NCBI GenBank assembly: GCA_022844125.1
Contig: JALHMI010000001.1
Location: 124,001 to 188,000, forward strand
Length of the DNA: 64,000 nt
Reading direction: 5' to 3'
From: Pirellulales bacterium
GTDB taxonomy: Bacteria > Planctomycetota > Planctomycetia > Pirellulales > PALSA-1355
Below, in pieces: positions 3,328 to 25,175 of the stretch (position 1 is the first letter of the stretch; each line of letters begins with the position of its first letter). A model generated the notes under the pieces. It made no database searches. It saw nothing but the letters and a program-made list of their open reading frames with translations, and had not been told where the DNA came from. The position numbers and the translations under genes were made by a program.

Positions 3328-3983
3328 GGCAGGCCTCCATACGTGACGTAACAGCGGCAGTTCGGGTGTGCCGGCGGTCCGCTTGGAAACCGGCCGGCCC
3401 AGATCGCCGCTTCGTACCCATCCAGCGGCGAGCAGATCGAACACACGCGGTCGTCGTTCGCTGTGTGCCAGAATCGATTCGTGAGGATCCCTGTGCCGAC
3501 AGCAGCGGCGACCATCAGCGAGCCGGTCACCAGGGCCGCGGCGACCAGGTTCATCCCATGCGAAGCGGCTCGCGTCGTTTCAGTGATCGCGATCGCCTCG
3601 GCCCGCCAATTCGGCAACAAGATGTCGGCGAGCTGGACCACGCTGCGGCGATCCTCGATTGCTCGTTGCCGCTCTTCGAACAGCTCGTCACGCACCCGCC
3701 CGGCGAAGTCGTGGGCGATGACGCCAGCTTGCTCGACGGCGTATCGCTCGGCATGGTTCTCCAGGTCGTCAAAGCCCGGAACACCGGAAGCTCCGGCCAG
3801 CTGAAGGGCTGCGGCCATGAACGTGTTTGAAAGCAGCAACCGCAGGGCGACAGCCAGATCGCGCTCGAGTTCGGAGAGCGAGATCTCGCGACCAGCCTCG
3901 ATCTGGCGACGATACAACACAAGCACTGCGGCGACCGCGGCCTCGATCTGCTGCTCGTGTTGCGTGCGGGCGGCGAAGTCCAT
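3324..3983 (-). CDS. Phage minor head protein, Mu gpF / SPP1 gp7 type
   Basis: The gene encodes 219 residues. Its ATG (3981-3983) shares a base with the portal stop codon (TAATG) and has GGAGGGG upstream. The C-terminal motif is characteristic of the phage head morphogenesis family: TANDDRVCSICSPLDG followed by FPSGPPAHPNCRCYV, with conserved Cys, His and Pro residues probably holding a small metal-binding fold. The N-terminal half is helical (residues 10-110), and an Ala/Val-rich stretch lies near residues 145-165. Proteins of this family ride with the portal into the head and help package or eject DNA. The order portal, gpF-like, protease matches many siphophage head modules. Confidence 0.85.
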   Translation of the reverse strand: MDFAARTQHEQQIEAAVAAVLVLYRRQIEAGREISLSELERDLAVALRLLLSNTFMAAALQLAGASGVPGFDDLENHAERYAVEQAGVIAHDFAGRVRDELFEERQRAIEDRRSVVQLADILLPNWRAEAIAITETTRAASHGMNLVAAALVTGSLMVAAAVGTGILTNRFWHTANDDRVCSICSPLDGYEAAIWAGRFPSGPPAHPNCRCYVTYGGLP

Positions 3984-5938
3984 TACGGATAGCCCCTCCA
4001 CAACAGTACGTCGATGATTCGGCGGGTGAGCGTGCGATCAGCGGGGTCGCGCTCACCCTCGGTGACCGGCGTCGGCCGGGGTGGCACGAGCTGCGGATCC
4101 GGCACGGCCGGCGGCGGCAGCTGCTTCTGTGCGTCGACGGTCAGCTGAGCCAGGCTGCGCTCGAGCCCGACGCCTACCAGCAGCTCAGTCGCTGCGACCG
4201 GAGCCAGTCGGCCGAGCTGCACGTCGGCCAGCACGCCGCGGGCTGCGTCGACCTGGGCACCGTTCAGCGTCAGATCGGTCTGCAGCCCGGCGTCGGCCGT
4301 CGCTGCAGGCGCCTCGGCGGGAGTCTGTTTGCCGGCAGTCTGTTCGCCGGCAGCCGGCGGCTCGGGCGCGGTGATCGAGATCGCCTTCGCACCGTTGGTC
4401 GTCTCTTCGTCGTGGTCGAGGCCTTCGAGCGTGGCCCACGTCTTCGAGCTGAGGATCCCCTTTTCGTTCAGGATCGCCCGACGGCCCGTCTCTTTGTCCG
4501 GATCCCGCACGGCGATCTCGGCGCCTTTGACCGTGAGCTCAAGCTTCCCGCACACGACGTGCCAGGGGTCTTCGCTCAGCACGCCGTCGAGCCAGGCGAA
4601 GTAGAGCACCTTCCACATGATCCGCTCTTCCGCGTCAGCATAGTTCTGCTGCTCGACTTCACCGGAGATCACGAACGGATCGCCGCTGACCAGGATCGAC
4701 GCGAAGTTGTTGTTGTGGGCCGAGCCGCTGACCATGTGCTCGGGCATGTTCCAGCGGACCGCCAGGGCTCGGAGAAGCGCTTCTTCAATCGCAATGTAGT
4801 TGGGAGCGTTCTGCGAGCCCATCGGGCCCGGCTTGTACTGCGTGCCCGGCGAAGGCGTGAGGATCGTGCCGGGCTCATACTGCGTCGTGTAGCTGGTCCG
4901 CGTGCCGCCGGCGGCGGTGCGAATCGTCTGCGTCAGATCGGCCCGCTGCGTGATGGCATTCTCAAGCGACGTGCGGTCCGGCGTCTGCACTTCACGGACC
5001 CAGGCGATCGCCGCCTGCAGGGCGCCGCCCTCGCCCGTGTTGCGCAGCAGCTTGCGGGCGAGCTCGGCCGTCGCGTCGACGGAGAACAGATCGCTGAGCC
5101 CACGCTTGACGTTGCTGTCGACGTTGACCTTCACGTGCTCGACATGCGTCCGGCCACCTGCCCCCGGCGGAATGATCGGCTCGCGTCCGCCGGGCAGATA
5201 ATCCCAGTCGGTGGCTTTGTTCGACCACTGCACGTAGCAGCCGTGCGTGCTGACGACGTCGTCGCCTTCGCTGTGAATTCCGAAGCTCCAGCTCGACGTG
5301 CGACCGTCACAGCCGAGCCACTCTTCGATTCCGCGAGCGTTGCCCGGCTCGGTGACCTGGTCCGGCTCGATGGCTCGGGCAGCGACGTTGCCTCCCCCCG
5401 TTGCCCACAGGCCGAGGAAGTATTCACCGTCGCGGCGCGAGCGAGTAAACAGCTCGCGCGAAAGCGTCGGCCAGTTGTTGGTCTTCTTGAAGCGGTCGAG
5501 GATCTTCTGAGCTCGCTCGGCCAGCGGCTCGTCGGTCTTGCTGGCGACCTTGTGCTCGAAGCCCTTGCCGATGATGTAATTGGCCAGGTTGTTCAGCACG
5601 CCGATGATGCGACCGTTGCAGGCCGCCAGCACCCGAGCGGCTCCCCGGATCGTGGCCAGCTCCTGCTCGGTCTGGAAGATCGGCAGCATCTTGCCGTCTT
5701 CCCGATCGTTCTTCGTCGTCGGCCAGGCGAAGAGTGAGCCGTGCGACTTCCGCCGGCCGTCGCCGAGATAGTCGTTTACGTTGACGTAGTTCGCAGGGTC
5801 ATAGTAGGACTCCATCGCGTCGGTGATTCGATTGCAGGCGATCGTCCGCAGCACCGCTTCCTGCTGATGGATCTGCAGCTGAAGCGCATTCGCCTCGGCC
5901 TTCTCTCGCAGCTCGGTGATCGGGGCGGCGGTGGTCAT
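3983..5938 (-). CDS. Phage portal protein
   Basis: The gene encodes about 651 residues from the ATG at 5938; an in-frame GTG at 5956 adds six residues, and neither has a convincing ribosome site. The protein has the features of a large portal: an N-terminal helical segment, then a core with DGEYFLGLWATGGG, an AIEPDQVTEPG turn typical of portal proteins, and MGSQNAPNYIAIEEALLRALAVRWNMPEHM, followed by a Pro/Ala-rich tail after residue 530. Portals form the 12-subunit ring through which DNA enters and leaves the capsid. The position directly after the large terminase and before the gpF-like gene supports the call. The C-terminal 120 residues may be a flexible extension contacting capsid or terminase. 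Confidence 0.85.
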   Translation of the reverse strand: MTTAAPITELREKAEANALQLQIHQQEAVLRTIACNRITDAMESYYDPANYVNVNDYLGDGRRKSHGSLFAWPTTKNDREDGKMLPIFQTEQELATIRGAARVLAACNGRIIGVLNNLANYIIGKGFEHKVASKTDEPLAERAQKILDRFKKTNNWPTLSRELFTRSRRDGEYFLGLWATGGGNVAARAIEPDQVTEPGNARGIEEWLGCDGRTSSWSFGIHSEGDDVVSTHGCYVQWSNKATDWDYLPGGREPIIPPGAGGRTHVEHVKVNVDSNVKRGLSDLFSVDATAELARKLLRNTGEGGALQAAIAWVREVQTPDRTSLENAITQRADLTQTIRTAAGGTRTSYTTQYEPGTILTPSPGTQYKPGPMGSQNAPNYIAIEEALLRALAVRWNMPEHMVSGSAHNNNFASILVSGDPFVISGEVEQQNYADAEERIMWKVLYFAWLDGVLSEDPWHVVCGKLELTVKGAEIAVRDPDKETGRRAILNEKGILSSKTWATLEGLDHDEETTNGAKAISITAPEPPAAGEQTAGKQTPAEAPAATADAGLQTDLTLNGAQVDAARGVLADVQLGRLAPVAATELLVGVGLERSLAQLTVDAQKQLPPPAVPDPQLVPPRPTPVTEGERDPADRTLTRRIIDVLLWRGYP

Positions 5939-5965
5939 CTTGCGTGACGCTCTCACGGAAGTGGC

Positions 5966-6127
5966 CTACTTTGCAACAGGGTCTTTCGTTGCGGCGACGT
6001 GTTTGTCGACAGTACGCCGGGCCACGCCGGCAATCCGCATGATCACACGTCGCGAAAACCCCTGATCTGACAGGCGCTTAATGCGATCTTTCGTCGCTTT
6101 GTCGACCGGCCGGCCGGAGACTCCCAT
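5966..6127 (-). CDS. Small helix-turn-helix protein between terminase and portal
   Basis: The gene encodes 53 residues from an ATG at 6125-6127 that overlaps the large terminase stop (TGATG), so translation is probably coupled. Residues 8-45 read as a simple resolvase/transposase-type helix-turn-helix: KDRIKRLSDQGFSRRVIMRI followed by AGVARRTVDKHV. Nothing else is present, so it is a bare DNA-binding domain. It could be a packaging accessory or a small regulator; a bare HTH wedged between terminase and portal is unusual. The composition matches its neighbours. Confidence 0.6.
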   Translation of the reverse strand: MGVSGRPVDKATKDRIKRLSDQGFSRRVIMRIAGVARRTVDKHVAATKDPVAK

Positions 6128-7737
6128 CAGATCGCCCCCACCATCACGTGATCTTCCTGGTCCTGCGGCTGCCGGCAGTCGCGGAGCCACTGCGTGACGA
6201 TTGCAACCAGCATCTCGAGCGCGTCGGGGCCATCGTCGTGGCTGTGCGAGTCGGGGAAGTCACGCAGCTGCCCGAGCAGCAGGGCCACCCCCTCGGAGCC
6301 GCGGCGGAAGCGGATCTGCTTTGCCGCCAGCGGTCCGCCGAGCGTGCGGATCCGGACCCGCTTATTGCCCATGTTGAAGATCGGCGCGACCTTCACCGCC
6401 AGATCGTGCCTGAGGAACTCGCGTTCGAACTGGTCGAGGAAGAGCTCCTGCATCGCATTGGCCTCGACGCCGAACACGTGCGGCATGAAGCGGCGGTAGA
6501 TCGAAACGCCGTCCTCGACGATCTGCCGCGGCGGCCGGCGAGCCAGGTCCGCGTCGACGTAGATCGCGCTGCCGGCGAACATGCCCCACACGAAGGCCGA
6601 GTAATCGCTGCGGCGGGCGTCCTTACCCTTCGACGGATCCAGCACGAGGGCCTTGACCTCGCACTGCTTCGGCCATTCGTCGAAGTAGATGTTTTCGAAG
6701 TAGCTCTCGGGCCATTCACAGTCCTCGGGGTTGATCGGCCGGCCCTGCTTCTCGCGCTGAAACGTCGACGGGTTGACCGCCCACTGCTGCATCAGCGTTT
6801 GCAGGTCTTCTTCCTCCGGCCACAGCACCGTGAGCCCGGCGTGCAGTGCCGCGGTGTGCTGCTCGAAGAAGCGGCGAGCCGCAGCCTTGCGGTCCGAGCT
6901 GGCCAGGTCGAAGTAAACCTCCGACCACTGATCCCAGAGAGCCAGGTTCGTCGGGGGCCACGGGGCCACCGAGGGGAATACCTTGCTCTCCCAGCCAGGC
7001 GTGCGATCGAGACGCATCGCGATCGCGTCCCGGTGCAACGCCGTCGCCAGGTTCAGCACGTTCGTCGACTTGTTGCCGGCCTTGAGCAGCGTGCCATCGA
7101 ACCAGGTCCAATCTCGCTCGCGACGGTTCGCGCTGGTCATCACCTGGTCGCCCTGAATGTCGTCGCACACGATCAGCGATGGACGATGGGCACCGGCCTT
7201 GCGGCCGCGAATCTTCTGGCCTGAGCCGTAGGCCTCGATCACGACGCCGTTCCGCATCTTGATCCGGCCCTTCTGCCACACGCTCCCCTTGCCGCAGGCC
7301 TCGGGATACGCGCGGCCGAGCTGGTCGTTGTCGACGAGCTCGTCTTTCAGCTTGCGCAGTTCCTCGTCGGCCTGGTCCTTCGTCTCCATCACGATCCAGA
7401 TCAGCGGCTCCCAGCCTTCGACCGCCGACCGCAGCACCAGGGCTGTCGTGCCGATCGTGCTCTTGGCGCCGCCGCGCGGGCCGATCACGTTCACGCGGTT
7501 GCCGCGAGTCGTGGCAAACTCGTCGCACCTGGCGAAGAGCCAGTTGTGCATGCCCGAGGCCGGCTTCGAGAAGTTCACCGGGAGGAAGTGCCGTGACCAC
7601 GGCTGCAAGCCGGAGAACGTCGGGCGCTCACTCTCGTGACGGAGCTGCTCGGCTTGCTGCAGTCGCTGACGTAGGACACCGGCCATCGTGCCGGCGACGA
7701 GCTTACGTAGCGGGATCGGGCGACGGCGGTGGCTCAA
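6127..7737 (-). CDS. terL: Terminase large subunit (DNA-packaging ATPase-nuclease)
   Basis: The gene encodes 536 residues from a TTG at 7735-7737 (GGAG ten bases upstream); an ATG at 7686 is a possible alternative giving 519 residues. The ATPase half has a Walker A at residues 86-93 (GPRGGAKS) and a Walker B with catalytic acids at 188-193 (LIVCDD). The C-terminal half is an RNase H-like nuclease, with LVLDPSKGKDARRSDYSA carrying the first acidic residue and DDGPDALE near residue 507 carrying the last. The enzyme cuts concatemeric phage DNA and pumps it through the portal, which is encoded two genes downstream. The small subunit candidate lies immediately upstream, and the frames overlap if the TTG is used. 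Confidence 0.93.
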   Translation of the reverse strand: MSHRRRPIPLRKLVAGTMAGVLRQRLQQAEQLRHESERPTFSGLQPWSRHFLPVNFSKPASGMHNWLFARCDEFATTRGNRVNVIGPRGGAKSTIGTTALVLRSAVEGWEPLIWIVMETKDQADEELRKLKDELVDNDQLGRAYPEACGKGSVWQKGRIKMRNGVVIEAYGSGQKIRGRKAGAHRPSLIVCDDIQGDQVMTSANRRERDWTWFDGTLLKAGNKSTNVLNLATALHRDAIAMRLDRTPGWESKVFPSVAPWPPTNLALWDQWSEVYFDLASSDRKAAARRFFEQHTAALHAGLTVLWPEEEDLQTLMQQWAVNPSTFQREKQGRPINPEDCEWPESYFENIYFDEWPKQCEVKALVLDPSKGKDARRSDYSAFVWGMFAGSAIYVDADLARRPPRQIVEDGVSIYRRFMPHVFGVEANAMQELFLDQFEREFLRHDLAVKVAPIFNMGNKRVRIRTLGGPLAAKQIRFRRGSEGVALLLGQLRDFPDSHSHDDGPDALEMLVAIVTQWLRDCRQPQDQEDHVMVGAI

Positions 7738-16411: not shown

Positions 16412-16647
16412 CTCTCACCTCCGCTGGCCGCCTGCCGAATCTTCTGCGAGGCCACCGCCGCGTCGTACCACGTGAAGTCGAGAGCTGGATTGCTGGCCCA
16501 GTTACCAAGCTGACGCAGAGCGTCGGCACGCGTGGCCTGGTTGTAGAGCAGCACGTACGTCTGGCCGTCGGCCTTCTTCACGGCGAGCATGTGAATGTCG
16601 TCGGAGCCATTGCCGGCCACCTCGGGGAAGTGAATGCGATTGGTCAT
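16408..16647 (-). CDS. Small phage protein, unknown
   Basis: The gene encodes 79 residues. The ATG at 16645-16647 has GGAGG seven bases upstream and overlaps the helicase stop (TGATG); an in-frame GTG three bases earlier is possible. A short beta hairpin (GQTYVLLYNQ) is followed by a helix. It is translated with the helicase. No motif is found. Confidence 0.5.
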   Translation of the reverse strand: MTNRIHFPEVAGNGSDDIHMLAVKKADGQTYVLLYNQATRADALRQLGNWASNPALDFTWYDAAVASQKIRQAASGGES

Positions 16648-18311
16648 CACGCTACCTCCATCCAGTGCATTGCCGAGCGTTCACGTAAACACACAAGCTC
16701 TCTTCGCGCCCTGGTCGCAGCGACGTAGCCGACGCGCTGCTCTTCGTCGTGACCCTCGCGCGTCTCGGCGCTGCGTGCCACCGGCCCGCTGGTCGTCGTG
16801 AGCAGCACGACCTTGTCGGCCTCCTGCCCCTTCACGCTGTGGATCGTGCCGACCTTGATCTTCGGTTCGGTGATCACCTCGTTGCCGTAGCGGTCGATCG
16901 CCGCGGTGACCTTCGGGGCATCCTTGACGAGCGTCTTCCACTGGCCCGATTCGACCAGCGCGCACAGCTTGGGCGTTGCTCCGAGCTTGTCGAGCTCGTG
17001 CGGTAGTACCCACTCGTAGCGGTCCGCCTCGCCGTTGGCCGCTTCGAAGCGGCTCTTCGTGCCACGCAGCAGCAGCTCCTCGCCGTCGAGCTTGCTCGGG
17101 ATCAGCTTGAGGATCTGCACCCACTCGTGACCGCTGATCGGTGCACCGTGCTCGAGGTTGTACAGACCGCCGATGCCCAGGTTGCGGACCGGAGCGAGCC
17201 AGCCCCCGCGCCCGCGGGTCGGCGCCCACGGGATACCCGCGGCATCGAGCTTCGCCGCCAGGCGTGCGGCCAGCATGTTCGTGCGGGCGAGGACCAGCGT
17301 CGACTCGGTCGGCTTCAGCGACTCGACGAAGCCGAGGCCCCACTCGGTCCGTACACTCCCCTCGTGATCCGCCGGTGCAATCTGCCGATCGAAGTAATCG
17401 CTGCAGCGCGAGAGCATCCGCTCGCCGATCCGCAGCACGGCTGCCGGACAGCGATAACTCTTCGGCATGATCTTCTCTTGAGCGGCCGGCCACGCCCGGA
17501 AGAGCGAGGCCTCGGCGCCGGCCCAGCGGTAAATGCTTTGAAACGGATCGCCCACGACGTACACCCATTTGACGATCGGCGTGTTGATCAATCGGTGACA
17601 CACGCGATCGAGCAGCGGCGACGCGTCCTGCTGTTCGTCGAAGAACCAGACCGGCACGCCTGGCACGTCCCCTTGCGGCCCGCTGATCGACTCGCTCGCG
17701 CCTTCGAAGTCGAACTTCAAGCCGACGAACCGGCCGAGCAGATCGACGAAGTCGAGCTTGCTGTCGAGCCGCTTGCCGCGTTCGTAGCGATCGACGATGT
17801 CACGGCAGAATCCGAGCGACGGACAGCGGTCGTCGCAGCGTCGGGCTTCGAGCCAGACCGTTTCGAACGACACCAGCCGGTTGCGGGCCGCGCCCCACAT
17901 GGCGAGCACGCGGCCAGTCGGCGACTCGTGAGCGAAGGCAACCTCGGCCAGGTTGCAATCGGCGCCCTGGTCGTCGACGGGCTGCAGCTCCTCGTCGAGC
18001 CACTCGGTGAGCCACTTGCCGCTGGCCCGGTTGCTCGTGATCATCGTGTCGCCGCTCACGCCCATCGCCTTGTAGCACACCGAGTGCAGCGTGCGGAAGT
18101 TTCCCTCACGCGTGAGATCAGTCGCATCCACGCCGAACTTCGCCGCTGCCCTGGTCGATGCTTCCTCACGAGCTGCCCGCGTGAACGACACGAAGCCGAT
18201 CTTGAACGGGTCGCGTACGCCCGCGTCTAGAACCTTCTCCATCGTGTCCATCAGCCAGGTCGTCTTGCCGGTCCCAGCTCCGCCGATCAGGCGTGCGATC
18301 GTGGCGCTCAT
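16647..18311 (-). CDS. UvrD/PcrA-like superfamily 1A DNA helicase
   Basis: The gene encodes 554 residues. Walker A GGAGTGKTT is at the N-terminus (about residues 10-18), the DExx motif appears as VWFFDEQQDA, motif III as GDPFQSIYRWAG, a motif IV-like LVLARTN follows, motif V is VGTIHSVKGQEADKVVL, and motif VI is VAATRARREL. The set is complete and in order, so this should be an active 3'-5' helicase. It is shorter than UvrD (about 720 residues), with a reduced 2B domain, like compact phage versions. It lies in the replication block with the primase-polymerase. Starts at 18311 (ATG) and 18314 (GTG) are adjacent; both couple to the preceding gene. Confidence 0.9.
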   Translation of the reverse strand: MSATIARLIGGAGTGKTTWLMDTMEKVLDAGVRDPFKIGFVSFTRAAREEASTRAAAKFGVDATDLTREGNFRTLHSVCYKAMGVSGDTMITSNRASGKWLTEWLDEELQPVDDQGADCNLAEVAFAHESPTGRVLAMWGAARNRLVSFETVWLEARRCDDRCPSLGFCRDIVDRYERGKRLDSKLDFVDLLGRFVGLKFDFEGASESISGPQGDVPGVPVWFFDEQQDASPLLDRVCHRLINTPIVKWVYVVGDPFQSIYRWAGAEASLFRAWPAAQEKIMPKSYRCPAAVLRIGERMLSRCSDYFDRQIAPADHEGSVRTEWGLGFVESLKPTESTLVLARTNMLAARLAAKLDAAGIPWAPTRGRGGWLAPVRNLGIGGLYNLEHGAPISGHEWVQILKLIPSKLDGEELLLRGTKSRFEAANGEADRYEWVLPHELDKLGATPKLCALVESGQWKTLVKDAPKVTAAIDRYGNEVITEPKIKVGTIHSVKGQEADKVVLLTTTSGPVARSAETREGHDEEQRVGYVAATRARRELVCLRERSAMHWMEVA

Positions 18312-18514
18312 CACATGCCCCCGAGGTAATACTGGTTTGCGGTGATCGGCTGCGGCTCCGCGGCCGTGGAGCCCTTACGCTTCGCGTCAGCGGGCCGGTG
18401 ACCGAGACGTCGACCGCAGAGCTTGCAGTGCGTTACGACGTAGCCAGGGCGATCAGGCGCGGGCTTGTCGACCCAGGCCTCGGGCGGACACAGGTTGCAG
18501 GGTTCGGGCTTCAC
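18311..18514 (-). CDS. Small zinc-ribbon protein
   Basis: The gene encodes 67 residues from a GTG (18512-18514) with GGGGG/GGTGG upstream. Cys pairs CNLC near the start and CKLCGRR later, separated by about 24 residues, form a zinc ribbon; the tail ends QYYLGGM. Its stop overlaps the helicase start. It may be a helicase or replication partner. Longer upstream frames exist but lack ribosome sites. Confidence 0.5.
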   Translation of the reverse strand: MKPEPCNLCPPEAWVDKPAPDRPGYVVTHCKLCGRRLGHRPADAKRKGSTAAEPQPITANQYYLGGM

Positions 18515-19059
18515 GGCGCCACCCCCCGGCGACTGCCCTTGGAGGTTTCCCGGCCTGTGACTAACGTGCATGGAACGAAGGGGCAAAACTGACGCGTCGT
18601 TTGCCCGCTTTCTCTAAAGCCGCCGGATTCACGTGCGGCGCGCACAGCGCGCACAATCAAATTCAAAAACGTTGTGCGCGCGTTCCGTCCTTTAATAACA
18701 AGGGCTTGCGCCGAAGCGCGCACACTCACTTTTCGGATCGTGTGCGCGCATTGCGGCCTTAGCTCATAAGGACTTAACTGCCGCGCGCACAATGAAACGT
18801 CGTTTTCAAAACCTTTAGCCCCCCCATGCCATCTTTCAAAAACGCTGTGCGCGCGTGCGCGCTCGCTGTTAAGTCGTTGTGGGCTCGAAACAAAAGGCGC
18901 GCACACGGCGCGCACTTTTGGAGACTCAAATGCTGTGCGCGCGTGCGCGCCCGGGCCACGTGAGCCGCCGAGGCTTCGATCGCATAGCGCGAGCGCGAAG
19001 GCCCCCCACGTGCCCGCTGTTGCGTTGACCAGATCGCGGTGACAACTGAGTCGTCTCAT
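18511..19059 (-). CDS. Doubtful 182-codon frame running through a palindrome array
   Basis: An open frame begins with an ATG overlapping the primase-polymerase stop (ATGA) and ends with TGA overlapping the next GTG (GTGA), which fits the coupled chain perfectly. However, the inferred protein is strongly Arg/Ala/Ser-rich, without any motif, and its middle is made of translated copies of the GTGCGCGC palindrome (segments such as ARAHSVFER and ARTTFLN). It may be only incidentally open because such GC-rich repeats rarely create stops, or it may be a real gene invaded by repeats. I list it because its ends match the coupling rule. Confidence 0.25.
   Translation of the reverse strand: MRRLSCHRDLVNATAGTWGAFALALCDRSLGGSRGPGAHARTAFESPKVRAVCAPFVSSPQRLNSERARAHSVFERWHGGAKGFENDVSLCARQLSPYELRPQCAHTIRKVSVRASAQALVIKGRNARTTFLNLIVRAVRAARESGGFRESGQTTRQFCPFVPCTLVTGRETSKGSRRGVAP
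18638..18950 (+). repeat. Array of 12 GTGCGCGC/GCGCGCAC sites in facing pairs
   Basis: Twelve exact copies of the 8-mer GTGCGCGC (either strand) lie in 313 bases. GCGCGCAC copies start at 18638, 18647, 18716, 18783, 18897 and 18908; GTGCGCGC copies start at 18674, 18742, 18847, 18855, 18935 and 18943. Opposed copies form inverted repeats, two of them with 10-base perfect arms: 18647-18656 with 18672-18681 (15-base spacer) and 18716-18725 with 18740-18749 (14-base spacer). Spacing between the backs of successive units is 32-34 bases in three cases, and those spacers resemble one another in part. The site lies between the primase-polymerase and helicase genes, where a replication origin or a cluster of protein-binding sites would be expected. 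The function is inferred. Confidence 0.8.
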
Positions 19060-20678
19060 GACGCGCTGCCCTCCAGCGCCGTCGTAGCGATCGCCAGTCG
19101 ATCGTCGCCTTCGAGCAGTTGCTCAAGCTTGGCAAGATGCGCAGGGGTCAGCACGGTGTACCTCGAGCGCGCGGCACCCCTCGCCGGGTAAAGTTTCTGA
19201 TCGCCCTTCGTCAGCCCGAGGCGGGCGGCCAGCTCGGCCGGCTCCTGCTTGGCCACGTGGCCCGTCATCAATCCGTCCTGCCACAGCTTCCGCCACTTGA
19301 ACCAGACCTCGCACGCGCCTCGTTCCCCCTTGATCCGCACCGGGCCGCCCAGCTCGTCGGGCGCGTCGGCGTCGTGCAACTGGCTGAGCTTCTCGGCCAG
19401 GTACTCGGCGACGATCACGTGCCGCTTGGCCATCGTCGGCGGGTTCTCGGTCTTCGCCGCGTCGAGCAGCTTGGCCTTGAGTCCACGCCGCGGCGGCTCG
19501 GCCGGCCCTTCGTCGTTCGCACGCTTGCCTTCGCGACCGTTCCAGATCGCCGGCCAGACGCGCGGCGACTCGTCGAGCACGACCTTGCGCGTCGCGGCCT
19601 GCACGGCCGCGGCCACCTTTGACGGATCGCGGTAGGCGTCGACGCTCATCGTCACGTCGCCCGAGCCGTCGACGGTGAACTCCTTCCAGGCCGGCACGTG
19701 CAGCCGGTAGAGCGGCGGGTCGCTGAGGATGATCGTCAGCTCCCAGTCACCGGGCCACCACTCGCCGTGTTCGTACGCCAGGCCGTGGATCGTGTACCCC
19801 ACGGTGCGCGTGCCCGCCTTGCTGCGCTCGCTGCGGATGAAGCCGATTGCCGAGTTGCACAGCTTCTTGATCTCGACGTCGTCGAGCGGCGGCTTGCACT
19901 GAGCCAGGTTCATCGCCCGCAGCAGATCGAGCAGATCTCCCTGCTCGGCCGCGTCGTCAATGTTCGGTGAGCGGCGGGCCTGGCTGCAGGCGAACTTGTA
20001 CAGCTTGTCGTTGCGTCCGCCCTCGGTGATCTGCTCGCCGACGATCGCGCGAGCCGACGGCTTGGCCTCGTGAATCTTCTCGTCGCCGGCCGCGTGGTTG
20101 TACAACCTGGTGATGATCGACTCGGGGATCTCCGCGAGCGGAACCGTGTCGGGATCGAGGCCTTCGAGCCAGGCGTACTGCGTGCCGCTGCCGTGCACGC
20201 TCGGCGGCATGACGGACTGCGTGGCCTTCGCACCGTCGCCGCCGATCCAGACTTCGAGCCCTTCGACGTCGGCCTTCGTGATCTGCGGTAGCTCGGGGCT
20301 CCATTTGAAAAGCCGATGCACGCCGCGGCTCGAGCGATACGTCGGCGTGTAGCACTCCTTCAGGTACTTGTCCGCCGCGGCCCGGCCCTCGTCGCTGTCG
20401 AATTCGATGTCGACGACGCCGCTCTTGGGCCCGAGCAGCAGGCCGATGTTGGAGATCGGCCATTTCTCGAAGAGCTGCAGCAGTTGCTCTTCGTCGCTGG
20501 TGGTCGCGTTCTCCTGCCAGGCCTTGCCGCGCGGGTGCTTGCCCGGCGACTCGCAGCGATTGCCGTTCATGCACGTGCAGCCGCCGTCGTGCGGGGCGTG
20601 CAGCATGACGACCTGCCAGCCACGGTTCGCGTAGCTGATCGCGGCGGATTGAATTGCATCCTGGCTATTGCGCTTCAT
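19056..20678 (-). CDS. Bifunctional primase-polymerase (archaeo-eukaryotic primase type)
   Basis: The gene encodes 540 residues from the ATG at 20676-20678. The N-terminal 200 residues match the prim-pol domain: AAISYANRGWQVVML, a Cys-containing loop with KHPRGKAW, then NIGLLLGPKSGVVDIEFDSD with the metal-binding acids, and a conserved region around SSRGVHRLFKW. A primase C-terminal type domain follows (EGGRNDKLYKFACSQARR, near 220-300). The last 200 residues are variable and basic. Phage enzymes of this type prime and extend DNA at the phage origin. The adjacent palindrome array and helicase support a replication module. There is no fused helicase domain, so the UvrD- or SNF2-like proteins may serve. 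Confidence 0.85.
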   Translation of the reverse strand: MKRNSQDAIQSAAISYANRGWQVVMLHAPHDGGCTCMNGNRCESPGKHPRGKAWQENATTSDEEQLLQLFEKWPISNIGLLLGPKSGVVDIEFDSDEGRAAADKYLKECYTPTYRSSRGVHRLFKWSPELPQITKADVEGLEVWIGGDGAKATQSVMPPSVHGSGTQYAWLEGLDPDTVPLAEIPESIITRLYNHAAGDEKIHEAKPSARAIVGEQITEGGRNDKLYKFACSQARRSPNIDDAAEQGDLLDLLRAMNLAQCKPPLDDVEIKKLCNSAIGFIRSERSKAGTRTVGYTIHGLAYEHGEWWPGDWELTIILSDPPLYRLHVPAWKEFTVDGSGDVTMSVDAYRDPSKVAAAVQAATRKVVLDESPRVWPAIWNGREGKRANDEGPAEPPRRGLKAKLLDAAKTENPPTMAKRHVIVAEYLAEKLSQLHDADAPDELGGPVRIKGERGACEVWFKWRKLWQDGLMTGHVAKQEPAELAARLGLTKGDQKLYPARGAARSRYTVLTPAHLAKLEQLLEGDDRLAIATTALEGSAS

Positions 20679-20711: not shown

Positions 20712-21305
20712 CTACCAGAATCGATGAGCGACGGCTCGCTCGTACGCGAGGGGAACGGGCGGCAAGAGATTGCCGTACTCGCAGGACCGGCAGTCGCACG
20801 GAAGATGGTAAGCATCGCAGTATGGCGCGATGCCTGGTCGACCGCATTCAGGGCACGTCATCCACACATACTCAGAATGCCAGTGCGTCGCGGGCGCAAG
20901 CCTGCAAAATTCACACTTAGGATTTCCCGACGTCTGCTTGCATTTACTACACCATCCGCACGCAACAAGATCCCCATACATTCCGTACCCGTCTGCACTC
21001 GCCGCCCCCGGGATGCGCATCTGCCCCGCGAAAATGAAGACCTCTTGTTTTGTGTGCCGACAGAGCAACTCGGCTTTCAATCGCTCGTCAGCAGTCGGAC
21101 TCTTCCCTTTAATCTCAATCCAATAGTTAAGGTCATGCAGGAAGAAATCCGGCAGGTACCGCACGCCGTCGAAGTCGAAGCCTTCTGCCTCGTACTGAAA
21201 CGAGATCCCCAGCGCGTCGAAGAACACGGCCCAGCGTGCTTCGAGCCGCGAGCGATACTGCACGCCCTTGAACGCGGCCGGGATTGCTTTGATGTTGGTT
21301 GTCAT
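20712..21305 (-). CDS. PD-(D/E)XK nuclease with zinc-binding C-terminus
   Basis: The gene encodes 197 residues from the ATG at 21303-21305. The N-terminal half is a restriction-like nuclease fold: QYRSRLEARWAVFFDALGI, then YEAEGFDF, the first acid in RYLPDFFL, and the E-x-K motif WIEIKGK. The second half carries many Cys and His residues (CGWCSKCKQ, CEFC, CPECGR, CDCRSCEYG), likely two zinc sites. Phage genomes often carry such stand-alone nucleases near the primase. It may act in recombination, DNA degradation or exclusion. Confidence 0.8.
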   Translation of the reverse strand: MTTNIKAIPAAFKGVQYRSRLEARWAVFFDALGISFQYEAEGFDFDGVRYLPDFFLHDLNYWIEIKGKSPTADERLKAELLCRHTKQEVFIFAGQMRIPGAASADGYGMYGDLVACGWCSKCKQTSGNPKCEFCRLAPATHWHSEYVWMTCPECGRPGIAPYCDAYHLPCDCRSCEYGNLLPPVPLAYERAVAHRFW

Positions 21306-21707: not shown

Positions 21708-22520
21708 CTACTCGTCGTCGGCGTCGTACTCCCGCTGATCGGGCACGATGCTGGCGATCACGGTTCGCAGCGGATCGGTGTACAGCTGCTTGATCCGCGT
21801 CCCCTCTTCCCGCGAGAGCTCGCCGACCAGCGTCGGGGTGATTCGGGCGTAATCCTGCCCCCCCTTGCTCTTCTGCTTTTCGAGCTTCAGCGAGACGACG
21901 GCCCGGAAGTGCGGCACCGTCAGCTTCTTGACGAACGGCACAACCGTTTTCAGCGAACCAGGTGCAGCGATGATCAAGAGCGGAAACGCATCCCCCTCGC
22001 GCAGGATCCCGAGCATCCGCGATTCCTTGCAGCGCTTGCCGATCCCCTGCTTGCCGGTGCCGAAGTCGTTGTACTTGTTCGGCCCGTGCTCATCGCTGCC
22101 GCGCCAGTCGTAGCGGCCGTCGTCGAGCATCATCGCGTCGAGGATCTCGGAATCGAGATCACCGATCCCTTCGTTGACGCGACGTGCGGTCCGCAGATCG
22201 TCGCTCACCAGCACGGGCAGGGCGTTGCCGACGTCCTCGCTCGGCCACAGCACGCCGCGGGGGCTGTAGTGCACGAGCACGCCGACGATCTCGTCGACCG
22301 TCTCATCGCCCTTGATGCCGGGGATCGCCCACCTGGTGGCGCCGCTGCCGGGGATCTTGACCCGCGTGAGATCGGTTTCCTTGATCCGCTCACCGTTGGC
22401 CAGGTTGGCCTCGAGCGCCTCGGCAATGTCGCTGCTCGGCCGCAGCGCGAGATACTTGCTCTGCTCGAGCACGCTCAAACCAGTTTCTTTCGTGCCCGTT
22501 TCCTTTGTGTCTGTTGACAT
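21708..22520 (-). CDS. Phage protein of the replication/recombination block
   Basis: The gene encodes 270 residues from the ATG at 22518-22520. The N-terminal 80 residues are acidic and helical (SDIAEALEANLANGERIKET). A beta-rich core with ATRWAIPG, EIVGVLVHYSPRGVLWP and PVLVSDDLR follows, then FGTGKQGIGKRCKESRML, a mixed region (PLLIIAAPGSLKTVVPFVKKL), and an acidic tail ending REYDADDE. Proteins with the pattern 'W.iPg......i.GV......r..W' occur in phages beside recombination genes, but I cannot name a function. A single-stranded DNA-binding role is possible because of the acidic tail. Confidence 0.55.
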   Translation of the reverse strand: MSTDTKETGTKETGLSVLEQSKYLALRPSSDIAEALEANLANGERIKETDLTRVKIPGSGATRWAIPGIKGDETVDEIVGVLVHYSPRGVLWPSEDVGNALPVLVSDDLRTARRVNEGIGDLDSEILDAMMLDDGRYDWRGSDEHGPNKYNDFGTGKQGIGKRCKESRMLGILREGDAFPLLIIAAPGSLKTVVPFVKKLTVPHFRAVVSLKLEKQKSKGGQDYARITPTLVGELSREEGTRIKQLYTDPLRTVIASIVPDQREYDADDE

Positions 22521-22711: not shown

Positions 22712-23146
22712 TTACCGCTTGCGCACACTGAGCCCGTGCTTGTCGAACACCTTGATCAGCGGGGCGAGGCCCGAGGGCATCGCATCCTCTTTGAGCCACT
22801 CCGCCACCCGGGCCTTGAAGGCCGGGTGGTTGATCGTGACCAGCTTCTCGCCGAGCCCCATCTGCTCGAGCGCTTTGATCAGCTCCTCCTTGCGACCGTC
22901 GGCCGGCGAAGCGTATGACGTCGTCGTGCGCGTCACCGTGTAGCCGTCGATGCCCATCGACTCCATGCCATCGACCCCCATCTGCTCGATCACGCGGGCC
23001 TCGATCGCTTCGATCTCGGTGTTGATCGGCTTGGCCTGCCGGCTGATCTCGTCGGCCTGCCGCCGCAGTTCGAGCAGCCGGCGGATGTCCGCCACCAATC
23101 CCTGATCTTGGGTGATCGCTTCGGTTTCCGTTGCCATCGCGTTCAT
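22712..23146 (-). CDS. Helical phage protein, unknown
   Basis: The gene encodes about 144 residues (ATG at 23144-23146; another in-frame ATG lies three codons later). The first 60 residues form a coiled coil (RRLLELRRQADEISRQAKP, then NTEIEAIEARVIEQ). The remaining part is a small alpha/beta domain (GYTVTRTTTSYASP, EELIKALEQMGLGEKLVTI). Its shape resembles phage proteins that accompany recombination or single-stranded DNA-binding proteins. The upstream 56 codons of the same frame are not needed. Confidence 0.55.
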   Translation of the reverse strand: MNAMATETEAITQDQGLVADIRRLLELRRQADEISRQAKPINTEIEAIEARVIEQMGVDGMESMGIDGYTVTRTTTSYASPADGRKEELIKALEQMGLGEKLVTINHPAFKARVAEWLKEDAMPSGLAPLIKVFDKHGLSVRKR

Positions 23147-23267
23147 TTGTCTGTACCCCGTTTGGCAGGGCGCTCCTTGTGAAAGTTGGGGAAGCCGCCG
23201 GCGTGCCCGGTGAGTGCTGGGCACCAGGTGCACGCCAGCGACCCCGAAACAAAAATGAGTCCGGCGG

Positions 23268-23501: not shown

Positions 23502-25175
23502 CTAAGCTGCCGCGTGATGGACCTGGTCGCGAAGTGCGGCCAGGACGTATTCGATGAGAGCGCGACCGTTGGCGATCGCTTCGTATGCACGCTCGTCGAC
23601 CGTGTCGATCGCGAGCAGGTGATGAAACGAGACGGGCCGCGTCTGACCTGGTCGATCGAGCCGAGCGCACGCCTGGCCGAAGTCCCCCTGCGAGATACAG
23701 CCGATCGAGTAGAAGATCGCCCGGGCACTTCGCGTGAGGTCGATGCCGGCGCCGCCGCTGCGAATCTGCACGCCGAACAGGTCGACGTCTTCGGGCAGCG
23801 TGGCCTGCTGCGTGAGATCGTTTCGCCGGCCGCTCAGCTCGCCGTACCTGCGGCCCAGCTTCCCCGCGATCCGCTCCACCTGGTCGAGGTCGTGACGGAA
23901 CCGGCAGAACACGACGACCGGCTCGCGGGCGTCAAGATCTTCGAGCAGCTCGCAGAGCGTGTCGGCCTTGGCCGTGTCCAGCTCCAGCTTGATCTGCTCG
24001 GCGCCCAGTTCGTCGGCCTCCGCGTTGACGAACCCGCAAGCCACCTGCTGCAGCCTGAGCACCTTGACCAGCGGGTTGTCGATCTTCACGGTTCCGAACT
24101 TGTCTTGCGAGTCGACAATGTCGGCAACCAGGTCCGTCTCGAGCTGCTCGTAATACTTGCGGGCCTTGGCCGAGAGGGTCACCGGTACGTCGATGTGCTG
24201 CACCGGCGGCAGATCCAGCTCGACGTCGAGGTGCACCGCACAGAGCGACATGAGCTCGCCGAGCTCTTCCTGGTTGACCCACTTGTCGACCTTGTTGGGG
24301 ATGAACTTAGACAGCACGGCGTAACGATTCTTGAAGCCGGTTACGCTGGTGCCGAAGATCGCCGGCTCGAGGAACCGGTACTGAGCGAACAGATCCAGCG
24401 GCGAGTGGGGCATCGGCGTGCCGCTGAGCGCCAGCCGGCGAGTTGCACGCAGGCCGAGCTGAGCGCAGAACTTGCTGGCCTTACCGCCCGGATCCTTGAT
24501 CTTGTGACTCTCGTCGAGCGCGGCAACGTCCCATCGTTTGGACAGGAAGAAGTCGGCGAGCGGCTTGCGCCAAGCGCTTTCGTAGCTGACGACCAGGGCC
24601 AGGCACACACCGCGGGGAGCTGTGGCGTACGCCTGCTCGGCGAGCTGCAGCTTCTTGGCCGGCGAGCCGTCGAGCACAACGGTCCGGTAGTCACCCGGAT
24701 AGTGCTTCGCGAATTCCTTCGGCCAGACGTTCAGCACCTTCGTTGGTGCGACGATCACGACTCGCTGCGAGCCCCAGTTGCCCAGCAGATCGCAGGCGAT
24801 CTTCGTCTTGCCGCCGCCCATCTTGATCGGCAGCAGCGTGGCCGGCCGATCGTAGGCGAACCAGTACGCGAGCCGTTGATGCTCCCACGGCGGGCTCTTG
24901 GTGATCGCTGGGTTTTCGAGCACATCGAACTCGGCGCCATTCGGCCACTGGGCCGCCAGGCGGATCAGCTCGTCGTCGAGCTCGACGCCCGCTTCCCGCA
25001 GCCGGACCGCCGTGTACGGCGTGACGGCCACGGTCCAGCCGCCGCGGCACTCGCGCGGCCAGCCGAACGATTGGAAGTAACCGGCAGTGCCGAAAGAGAA
25101 CGGCACCTCGATTGCGATCCGCTCGCCGGCCAGGCGTGCTTTGCAGTTAGTGAGTGGTTCCGTGGGCTTGAGCAT
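23502..25175 (-). CDS. SNF2-like superfamily 2 helicase/ATPase
   Basis: The gene encodes 557 residues from the ATG at 25173-25175. Motif I is LPIKMGGGKTKIACDLL (near residue 118), motif Ia VVIVAPTKVLNVW, motif II VAALDESHKIKD, motif III LALSGTPMPHS, motif V SGGAGIDLTRSAR and motif VI ACARLDRPGQT. The last motif, RLDRPGQT, is the SNF2 form rather than the DEAD-box form. Phage SNF2-like proteins remodel or unwind replication intermediates. The N-terminal 100 residues are a substrate-binding extension. The frame overlaps its upstream neighbour by 29 bases. Confidence 0.9.
   Translation of the reverse strand: MLKPTEPLTNCKARLAGERIAIEVPFSFGTAGYFQSFGWPRECRGGWTVAVTPYTAVRLREAGVELDDELIRLAAQWPNGAEFDVLENPAITKSPPWEHQRLAYWFAYDRPATLLPIKMGGGKTKIACDLLGNWGSQRVVIVAPTKVLNVWPKEFAKHYPGDYRTVVLDGSPAKKLQLAEQAYATAPRGVCLALVVSYESAWRKPLADFFLSKRWDVAALDESHKIKDPGGKASKFCAQLGLRATRRLALSGTPMPHSPLDLFAQYRFLEPAIFGTSVTGFKNRYAVLSKFIPNKVDKWVNQEELGELMSLCAVHLDVELDLPPVQHIDVPVTLSAKARKYYEQLETDLVADIVDSQDKFGTVKIDNPLVKVLRLQQVACGFVNAEADELGAEQIKLELDTAKADTLCELLEDLDAREPVVVFCRFRHDLDQVERIAGKLGRRYGELSGRRNDLTQQATLPEDVDLFGVQIRSGGAGIDLTRSARAIFYSIGCISQGDFGQACARLDRPGQTRPVSFHHLLAIDTVDERAYEAIANGRALIEYVLAALRDQVHHAAA

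Follow-up and report, generated by a model that had tools for sequence, protein, structure and literature searches.

A two-orientation iteron array 3' of a primase-polymerase gene as the probable replication origin of a planctomycete prophage

Gene content of the locus

The repeat array described here lies in a 64,000-nucleotide stretch of DNA from a Pirellulales bacterium, which was analyzed as a whole and is referred to as the window. Genes for the terminase large subunit (6127-7737) and the portal (3983-5956) indicate that the element is a tailed phage or prophage. The array (18638-18950) occupies a non-coding gap with the primase-polymerase (PrimPol) gene on one side and a zinc-ribbon/UvrD-helicase pair on the other, beginning about 105 bp past the PrimPol stop codon and ending inside the PrimPol-UvrD gap. 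On the minus strand the genes follow each other in the order SNF2-type helicase, small proteins, phrog_23155 protein, endonuclease-like protein, PrimPol, array, zinc-ribbon protein and UvrD-like helicase:

23502-25175, minus strand: SNF2-type helicase, member of the conserved module
21708-22520, minus strand: phrog_23155 protein, 270 aa, member of the conserved module
20712-21305, minus strand: small endonuclease-like protein
19056-20678, minus strand: PrimPol, 540 aa, with Prim-Pol (PF09250) and PriCT-1 domains (domain matches); proposed initiator primase
19110-19424, minus strand: predicted winged helix of PrimPol, residues 419-523 (structure model); proposed iteron reader
18311-18514, minus strand: small zinc-ribbon protein (putative start), first gene past the array
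16647-18314, minus strand: UvrD-like helicase

A 182-aa open reading frame (18511-19059) spans the array and overlaps the PrimPol stop as ATGA. The coding reading was dropped: the frame has no PHROGs match and its translation resembles repeat read-through. Another frame, over the array of Meiothermus phage MMP7 described below (record 6492-6716, AZF88251), is annotated as "SDR family oxidoreductase". Both frames are probably spurious.

Structure of the array

As the earlier note on this DNA had reported, 12 exact copies of the 8-mer GTGCGCGC lie within 313 bases, six on each strand, and both the exact coordinates and shuffled sequences bear out its judgment that this is beyond chance. The whole window has 15 such sites and shuffles predict about 17.7 per 64 kb; 12 sites where about 0.09 are expected per 313 bp are therefore far above chance. 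Shifted versions of GTGCGCGC aside, no other 8-mer exceeds 4 copies in any 313-bp stretch of the window. The note also raised the possibility that the same array recurs in the host chromosome. TGTGCGCGC has 95 copies in the 6.44-Mb genome: nine are inside the array and the rest, among the matches listed, are scattered, so that on these matches the 6.4-Mb genome has no second GTGCGCGC cluster. A single opposed pair, GTGCGCGC-N23-GCGCGCAC, was seen in an intergenic region of the host chromosome (G000:C3:310500-310538, that is L001:1501-1539), and its spacer begins with ATTGCG, as does the spacer of unit B below.

The 8-mer itself had been called a palindrome, which is not the case: only the GCGCGC part of GTGCGCGC is palindromic, and the sites are used as opposed pairs. 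Read on the plus strand, the layout is (- -) 19 bp (+ 34-bp core -) 18 bp (+ 33-bp core -) 56 bp (+ + 34-bp core - -) 19 bp (+ +), that is, three units of an iteron, a 33/34-bp core and an inverted iteron, with tandem sites at both ends:

18638-18654 (18638-18645 and 18647-18654), minus strand: two tandem iterons (site match)
18674-18681, plus strand: left-arm iteron of unit A (site match)
18682-18715, minus strand: core of unit A, 34 bp, TTCGGCGCAAGCCCTTGTTATTAAAGGACGGAAC on the minus strand; the window's best match of the relatives' core matrix
18716-18723, minus strand: right-arm iteron of unit A (site match)
18742-18749, plus strand: left-arm iteron of unit B (site match)
18750-18782, minus strand: core of unit B, 33 bp, GGCAGTTAAGTCCTTATGAGCTAAGGCCGCAAT on the minus strand; core matrix match no. 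6
18783-18790, minus strand: right-arm iteron of unit B (site match)
18791-18846, no strand: 56-bp AT-richer gap between the iteron sets (sequence); candidate melting site
18847-18862, plus strand: left arms of unit C, two tandem iterons (site match)
18863-18896, plus strand: core of unit C, 34 bp, TCGCTGTTAAGTCGTTGTGGGCTCGAAACAAAAG, in the opposite orientation to cores A and B (sequence comparison with relatives)
18897-18915 (18897-18904 and 18908-18915), minus strand: right arms of unit C, two iterons (site match)
18935-18950, plus strand: two tandem iterons (site match)

Convergent pairs are separated by 34, 33 and 34 bp, and these three spacers, the cores, are partly alike with one of them inverted, in accordance with the earlier description of 32-34-base spacers, partly similar and one reversed. 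Divergent pairs have 18-19 bp between the 8-mers, plus one of 56 bp; the spacers of 14-15 bp given previously hold only if the complementary flanks AA/TT or AC/GT are joined to the arms. The 56-bp gap splits the iterons six to six and has 43% GC by count against 63% for the window, which makes it AT-richer but not AT-rich in absolute terms; array bases outside the sites likewise have 43% GC.

The array in related elements

A search of 392 genomes of the phylum gave genome G302 (loci L039/L083), the closest bacterial relative, with a gene order as in the window. Its PrimPol-UvrD gap carries a TTGTAGCC/GGCTACAA array in both orientations, and the corresponding gap of viral contig L106 carries ACCGTCCA/TGGACGG. 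Both arrays occupy the matching gap and are built of other words, so that conservation extends to the place but not to the word. A further array of G302, AATTTCTG/AGAAATTA, lies downstream of its UvrD gene and has a regular period of about 30 bp (L083:5330-5633).

Close relatives of the PrimPol in viral contigs were not found by single-protein search, and a UvrD profile was needed. It gave 80 viral loci, in 75 of which a PrimPol match lies upstream of UvrD, mostly ending 70-250 bp before it, and many of the gaps contain lineage-specific inverted repeats, for example ACCGTCCACC, ATTCCGCGTC, TTTTCCCGGC and TTTGTGGTCC. The iterons of relatives are defined by inverted repetition, so their borders could shift by a few bases. 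Where a close UvrD relative occurs in bacterial contigs, these belong to Planctomycetota, in line with the planctomycete setting assumed in the earlier note; four metagenome-assembled contigs of this phylum with this UvrD, Bythopirellula and Phycisphaerales among them, have PrimPol before UvrD and repeats in the gap, clear in three (L258, L260, L261) and weak in one (L259). We found no earlier description of these arrays in the open-access literature.

The window's own 8-mer was also sought elsewhere. An exact pair-pattern scan of other viruses gave other kinds of arrays only (LexA-linked 22-bp dyads, TTGACA repeats and others), and a DNA-level search among cultured phages gave no match to the array. 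The earlier note had held that absence of the same 8-mer from related phages would speak against a phage-specific origin; this is misleading, since the 8-mer is lineage-specific and it is the place and architecture that are conserved. Among arrays of other kinds, those of viral contigs L066, L067, L069, L071-L073, L077, L080 and L081 consist of dyads similar to GTGYNNNNNNNNRCAC with a phase of about 22 bp; those of L067, L071, L072 and L080 lie shortly upstream of a gene with a LexA-like-looking start. L078:4711-4826 and L079:11900-12013 are made up of ~35-bp repeats, every copy of which contains GCACTTGACAGGGTGCGCGCACC and with it a promoter-like TTGACA. Unrelated PrimPol elements of the phylum (L084, L097, L116, L130, L137, L120, L125 and others) have strong two-orientation arrays with words of their own (ACATGCGCG, TGACGACA, CGGACCAA, GGTGAGCAC); some contain GGTGAAAGA-like words, which resemble the iteron of P4.

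In two cultured phages, Meiothermus phage MMP7 and Thermus phage Riverbug, UvrD is preceded by a small protein; judged by eye from the translations, the end of this protein is similar to the C-terminus of PrimPol. In MMP7 a TGTCACA array follows directly after the small-protein gene, with two pairs exactly 38 bp apart, and is the strongest such cluster of the genome. In Riverbug CTGACTAC occurs eight times inside the 3' end of the gene, with two pairs 37 bp apart and tandem 8-bp copies. This cluster is the second strongest of Riverbug; the stronger one, TGGTGAA/TTCACCA, has 12 copies in both orientations inside ORF Riverbug_39 (L254:9775-9913, record 23059-23197). A GC-skew plot, which the earlier note had proposed, proved uninformative for the window, giving no clear origin signal, and none was seen in MMP7, MMP17 or Riverbug.

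Repeats at PrimPol 3' ends and the conserved core

We examined 60 PrimPol loci of the planctomycete phylum and 20 other stretches. With a home-made score, the best two-orientation short-repeat cluster in the 500 bp at the 3' end of the PrimPol ORF was compared with that at the 3' ends of other long ORFs of the same loci. Clusters scoring at least 2 were present at 28 of 56 PrimPol ends and 56 of 489 controls (odds ratio 7.7, p 7e-11), and clusters scoring at least 3 at 21 and 22, respectively (odds ratio 12.7, p 8e-12). Twenty of the PrimPol loci, together with the window, G302 and L106, had been inspected before the test; 18 of the 28 positives are among the 40 loci fetched afterwards. By the same score about half of the PrimPol genes have no detectable array at the 3' end. 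PrimPol 5' ends show no enrichment (5/58 vs 43/489, Mann-Whitney p 0.27).

Inverted arms of at least 8 bp are present in 33 of 52 distinct PrimPol-UvrD gaps and in 102 of 381 control windows (p 3e-7); counted by spacer, 59 were seen where shuffles give 9.4. The spacers peak at 38 bp (8 loci), with a lesser group at 15-17 bp. The 34/33/34 bp of the window become 38/37/38 if the inner GC of each iteron is assigned to the core, which is our choice of border. Between the arms, the viral gaps share a conserved core, CGTAAGTCCTT. A 26-bp, core-anchored matrix, for which the 52 viral gaps served as the training set and the window was left out, reads gaCGTAAGTCCTT...t..cA. On both strands of the window its best match is unit A (18692) and its sixth best is unit B (18760), and in G302 the two best matches of 20 kb lie at the homologous gap or its edge. 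Control stretches reach absolute scores like those of the window, so it is the ranking that constitutes the evidence. A fixed-register 38-bp matrix failed on the window because the offset from iteron to core varies, and the core-anchored one was better. The inner GACTTAAC/GTTAAGTC pair is reminiscent of integron attC boxes; that reading was dropped, as the pair recurs in phage gaps within the core.

PrimPol and its predicted winged helix

PrimPol was modelled with AlphaFold at a pLDDT of 89, and its C-terminal 146 residues, as a separate model, at 85. In the models the H-S-H-H-S-S order of a winged helix is found at about residues 419-523, preceded by an extra domain between PriCT-1 and the winged helix. 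Prim-Pol and PriCT-1 are the only families matched by PrimPol, and among 41 homologues there was no match to a helicase family. The nearest solved structures to the whole protein are NrS-1 PrimPol and pRN1 ORF904. For the C-terminus the first Foldseek match, a weak one, is SaPIbov1 Rep (E 0.014, prob 0.92), whose chain residues 452-556 were aligned with a VIA Z of 4.7 and, over 92 residues, an rmsd of 3.9. SCCmec Cch was also matched, with a Z of 4.3, as was TcpK in complex with oriT DNA, with a Z of 6.3. All three are weak matches of the kind expected from a common fold.

In 19 loci, iteron identity correlates with PrimPol identity (Spearman 0.50 for the catalytic part, 0.35 for the winged helix; 0.18 for UvrD). 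The correlation with the winged helix stays given UvrD (r 0.32, p 0.003) and vanishes given the catalytic domain. Judged by sequence identity, the iterons appear to follow PrimPol and not UvrD, with the winged helix inseparable from the catalytic domain as the part that is tracked.

Function of the array

The array fits the initiator-origin logic of PICI/SaPI, P4, pRN1 and ColE2, and we therefore consider it likely to be the replication origin of the prophage, situated just 3' of the initiator primase gene and bound by PrimPol. An origin was one option of the earlier note, and it is strengthened by the position-conserved, sequence-divergent arrays found 3' of PrimPol in many relatives; nothing specific to the centromere and RNA options of the same note was found in their favor. 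In the proposed mechanism, PrimPol would bind the GTGCGCGC iterons, as opposed pairs around the conserved cores, by its C-terminal winged helix. Assembly on the two six-site sets may then bend and melt AT-richer DNA, either the 56-bp gap or the cores, whereupon the catalytic domain would make primers on the separated strands. Two helicases encoded in the operon, UvrD-like and SNF2-like, could help to extend the bubble. Speaking against an origin are the lack of a GC-skew signal, the half or so of PrimPol genes with no detectable array, and the nanhaiviruses described below, which have this gene order but no array at this place.

The main rival is an operator array, through which a phage regulator (perhaps PrimPol in autoregulation, or the zinc-ribbon protein) would control transcription of the zinc-ribbon and UvrD genes. 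The array does lie upstream of these genes in the direction of transcription, and inverted pairs fit a dimeric regulator. However, arrays 3' of PrimPol are also present in many loci not chosen for a downstream UvrD, the enrichment does not extend to PrimPol 5' ends, the iterons track PrimPol instead of UvrD, and 12 sites with conserved cores are many for one operator. We regard this as unlikely to be the main role, although it could coexist with that of an origin.

Less probable still is a single-strand priming site, at which the inverted repeats would extrude as hairpins read by PrimPol, with the duplex origin elsewhere. RepB' recognises hairpins at ssi sites, and such recognition has been proposed for pRN1. 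An essential stem-loop 3' of the gene is also known in pRN1 (PMC4234260), and the array offers perfect 10-bp arms with 14-15-nt loops and a strand whose folding is more favorable than that of shuffled sequences (z -4.8). However, good folding is a property of any inverted repeat, whatever it does, and the folding score is thus no independent evidence. Tandem copies on one strand, at 8-11 bp, are also better explained by duplex binding than by hairpins. A partition (centromere-like) site of a plasmid-like prophage would account for dense iterated inverted sites, but is very improbable with no ParA or ParB recognised among the proteins scanned around the array and a place tied to PrimPol in relatives. 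Just as improbable is an untranslated RNA with a structure of its own, or an attenuator: a transcript of the GC-rich inverted repeats would fold, but there is no Rfam match at the array, and the two orientations are equally frequent and partly in direct tandem, an arrangement that calls for no transcript.

Returning to the origin, we tentatively suggest, with somewhat less than even confidence, that these arrays represent an undescribed class of phage origins, made of "iteron, ~38-bp core, inverted iteron" units 3' of a helicase-less PrimPol/winged-helix primase and occurring in planctomycete phages and, with a split initiator, in Thermus and Meiothermus phages. In such a class the iteron word would evolve fast, in step with the initiator, whereas core and geometry would be retained; binding, melting and priming would all be carried out by the initiator itself, assisted by a separate UvrD-type helicase. 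To our knowledge, no origin is known for most environmental phages, because the sequence words of one lineage are not found again in another. A search for iterons in two orientations immediately 3' of PrimPol genes needs no particular word and could point to candidate origins across many uncultured phages, and the versions in Riverbug and MMP7 make the pattern testable in cultured hosts. The module also raises the question whether a helicase-less phage primase can open its own origin, as ColE2 Rep does.

Comparison with known systems

Nanhaiviruses (Dinoroseobacter R5C and R26L, Pseudanabaena Pan1) have the same gene order of SF2 helicase, small genes, hypothetical protein, primase and UvrD-like helicase, but their primase and UvrD genes overlap and no array was found there.

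In PICI origins, which follow the initiator gene directly on its 3' side, an AT-rich stretch is flanked by two sets of iterons (PMC6092414). The C-terminal domain of SaPIbov1 Rep is reported to recognise such iterons 3' of its gene (PMC7581432). The prophage is similar in having short iterons directly 3' of the primase gene, with a 3' enrichment that is general among PrimPol genes, two iteron sets that flank an AT-richer 56-bp gap, and a PrimPol C-terminus with a weak fold match to SaPIbov1 Rep (E 0.014). It differs in that PrimPol has no helicase domain of its own, UvrD and SNF2 helicases being separate genes, in that the iterons form opposed pairs around conserved cores, and in carrying terminase and portal genes, unlike a satellite.

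The winged helix of P4 alpha binds origin repeats (PMC4234260), and a primase with a repeat-binding winged helix is the point of likeness, the helix being only predicted for the prophage PrimPol. P4, however, joins a bacterial-type (Toprim) primase and a helicase in one protein, whereas the prophage has a Prim-Pol (PF09250) and no helicase domain. In pRN1 the essential origin lies directly 3' of a PrimPol-winged-helix gene, its shape being conserved and its sequence not (PMC4234260). ORF904, whose PrimPol is one of the solved structures nearest to that of the prophage, likewise ends in a winged helix. The pRN1 origin, however, is a single 100-nt stem-loop that lacks iterons, and ORF904 includes an SF3 helicase, while the prophage has 12 iterons in three units. 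C-terminal winged helices of related primases have been proposed as origin readers, and ColE2 Rep, although it lacks an NTPase domain, unwinds its own origin (PMC5862659). Proteins of the ColE2 Rep and RepE/RepS type can be likened to the prophage PrimPol by domain layout, i.e. Prim-Pol clade, PriCT-1 and a C-terminal DNA-binding domain with no NTPase domain; the prophage PrimPol differs by its extra domain between PriCT-1 and the winged helix, and the phage by its separate helicases.

From these comparisons the array would be a variation on the known origin type with iterons 3' of an initiator-primase gene, set apart by the helicase-less PrimPol, the separate helicases and the cores between opposed iterons.
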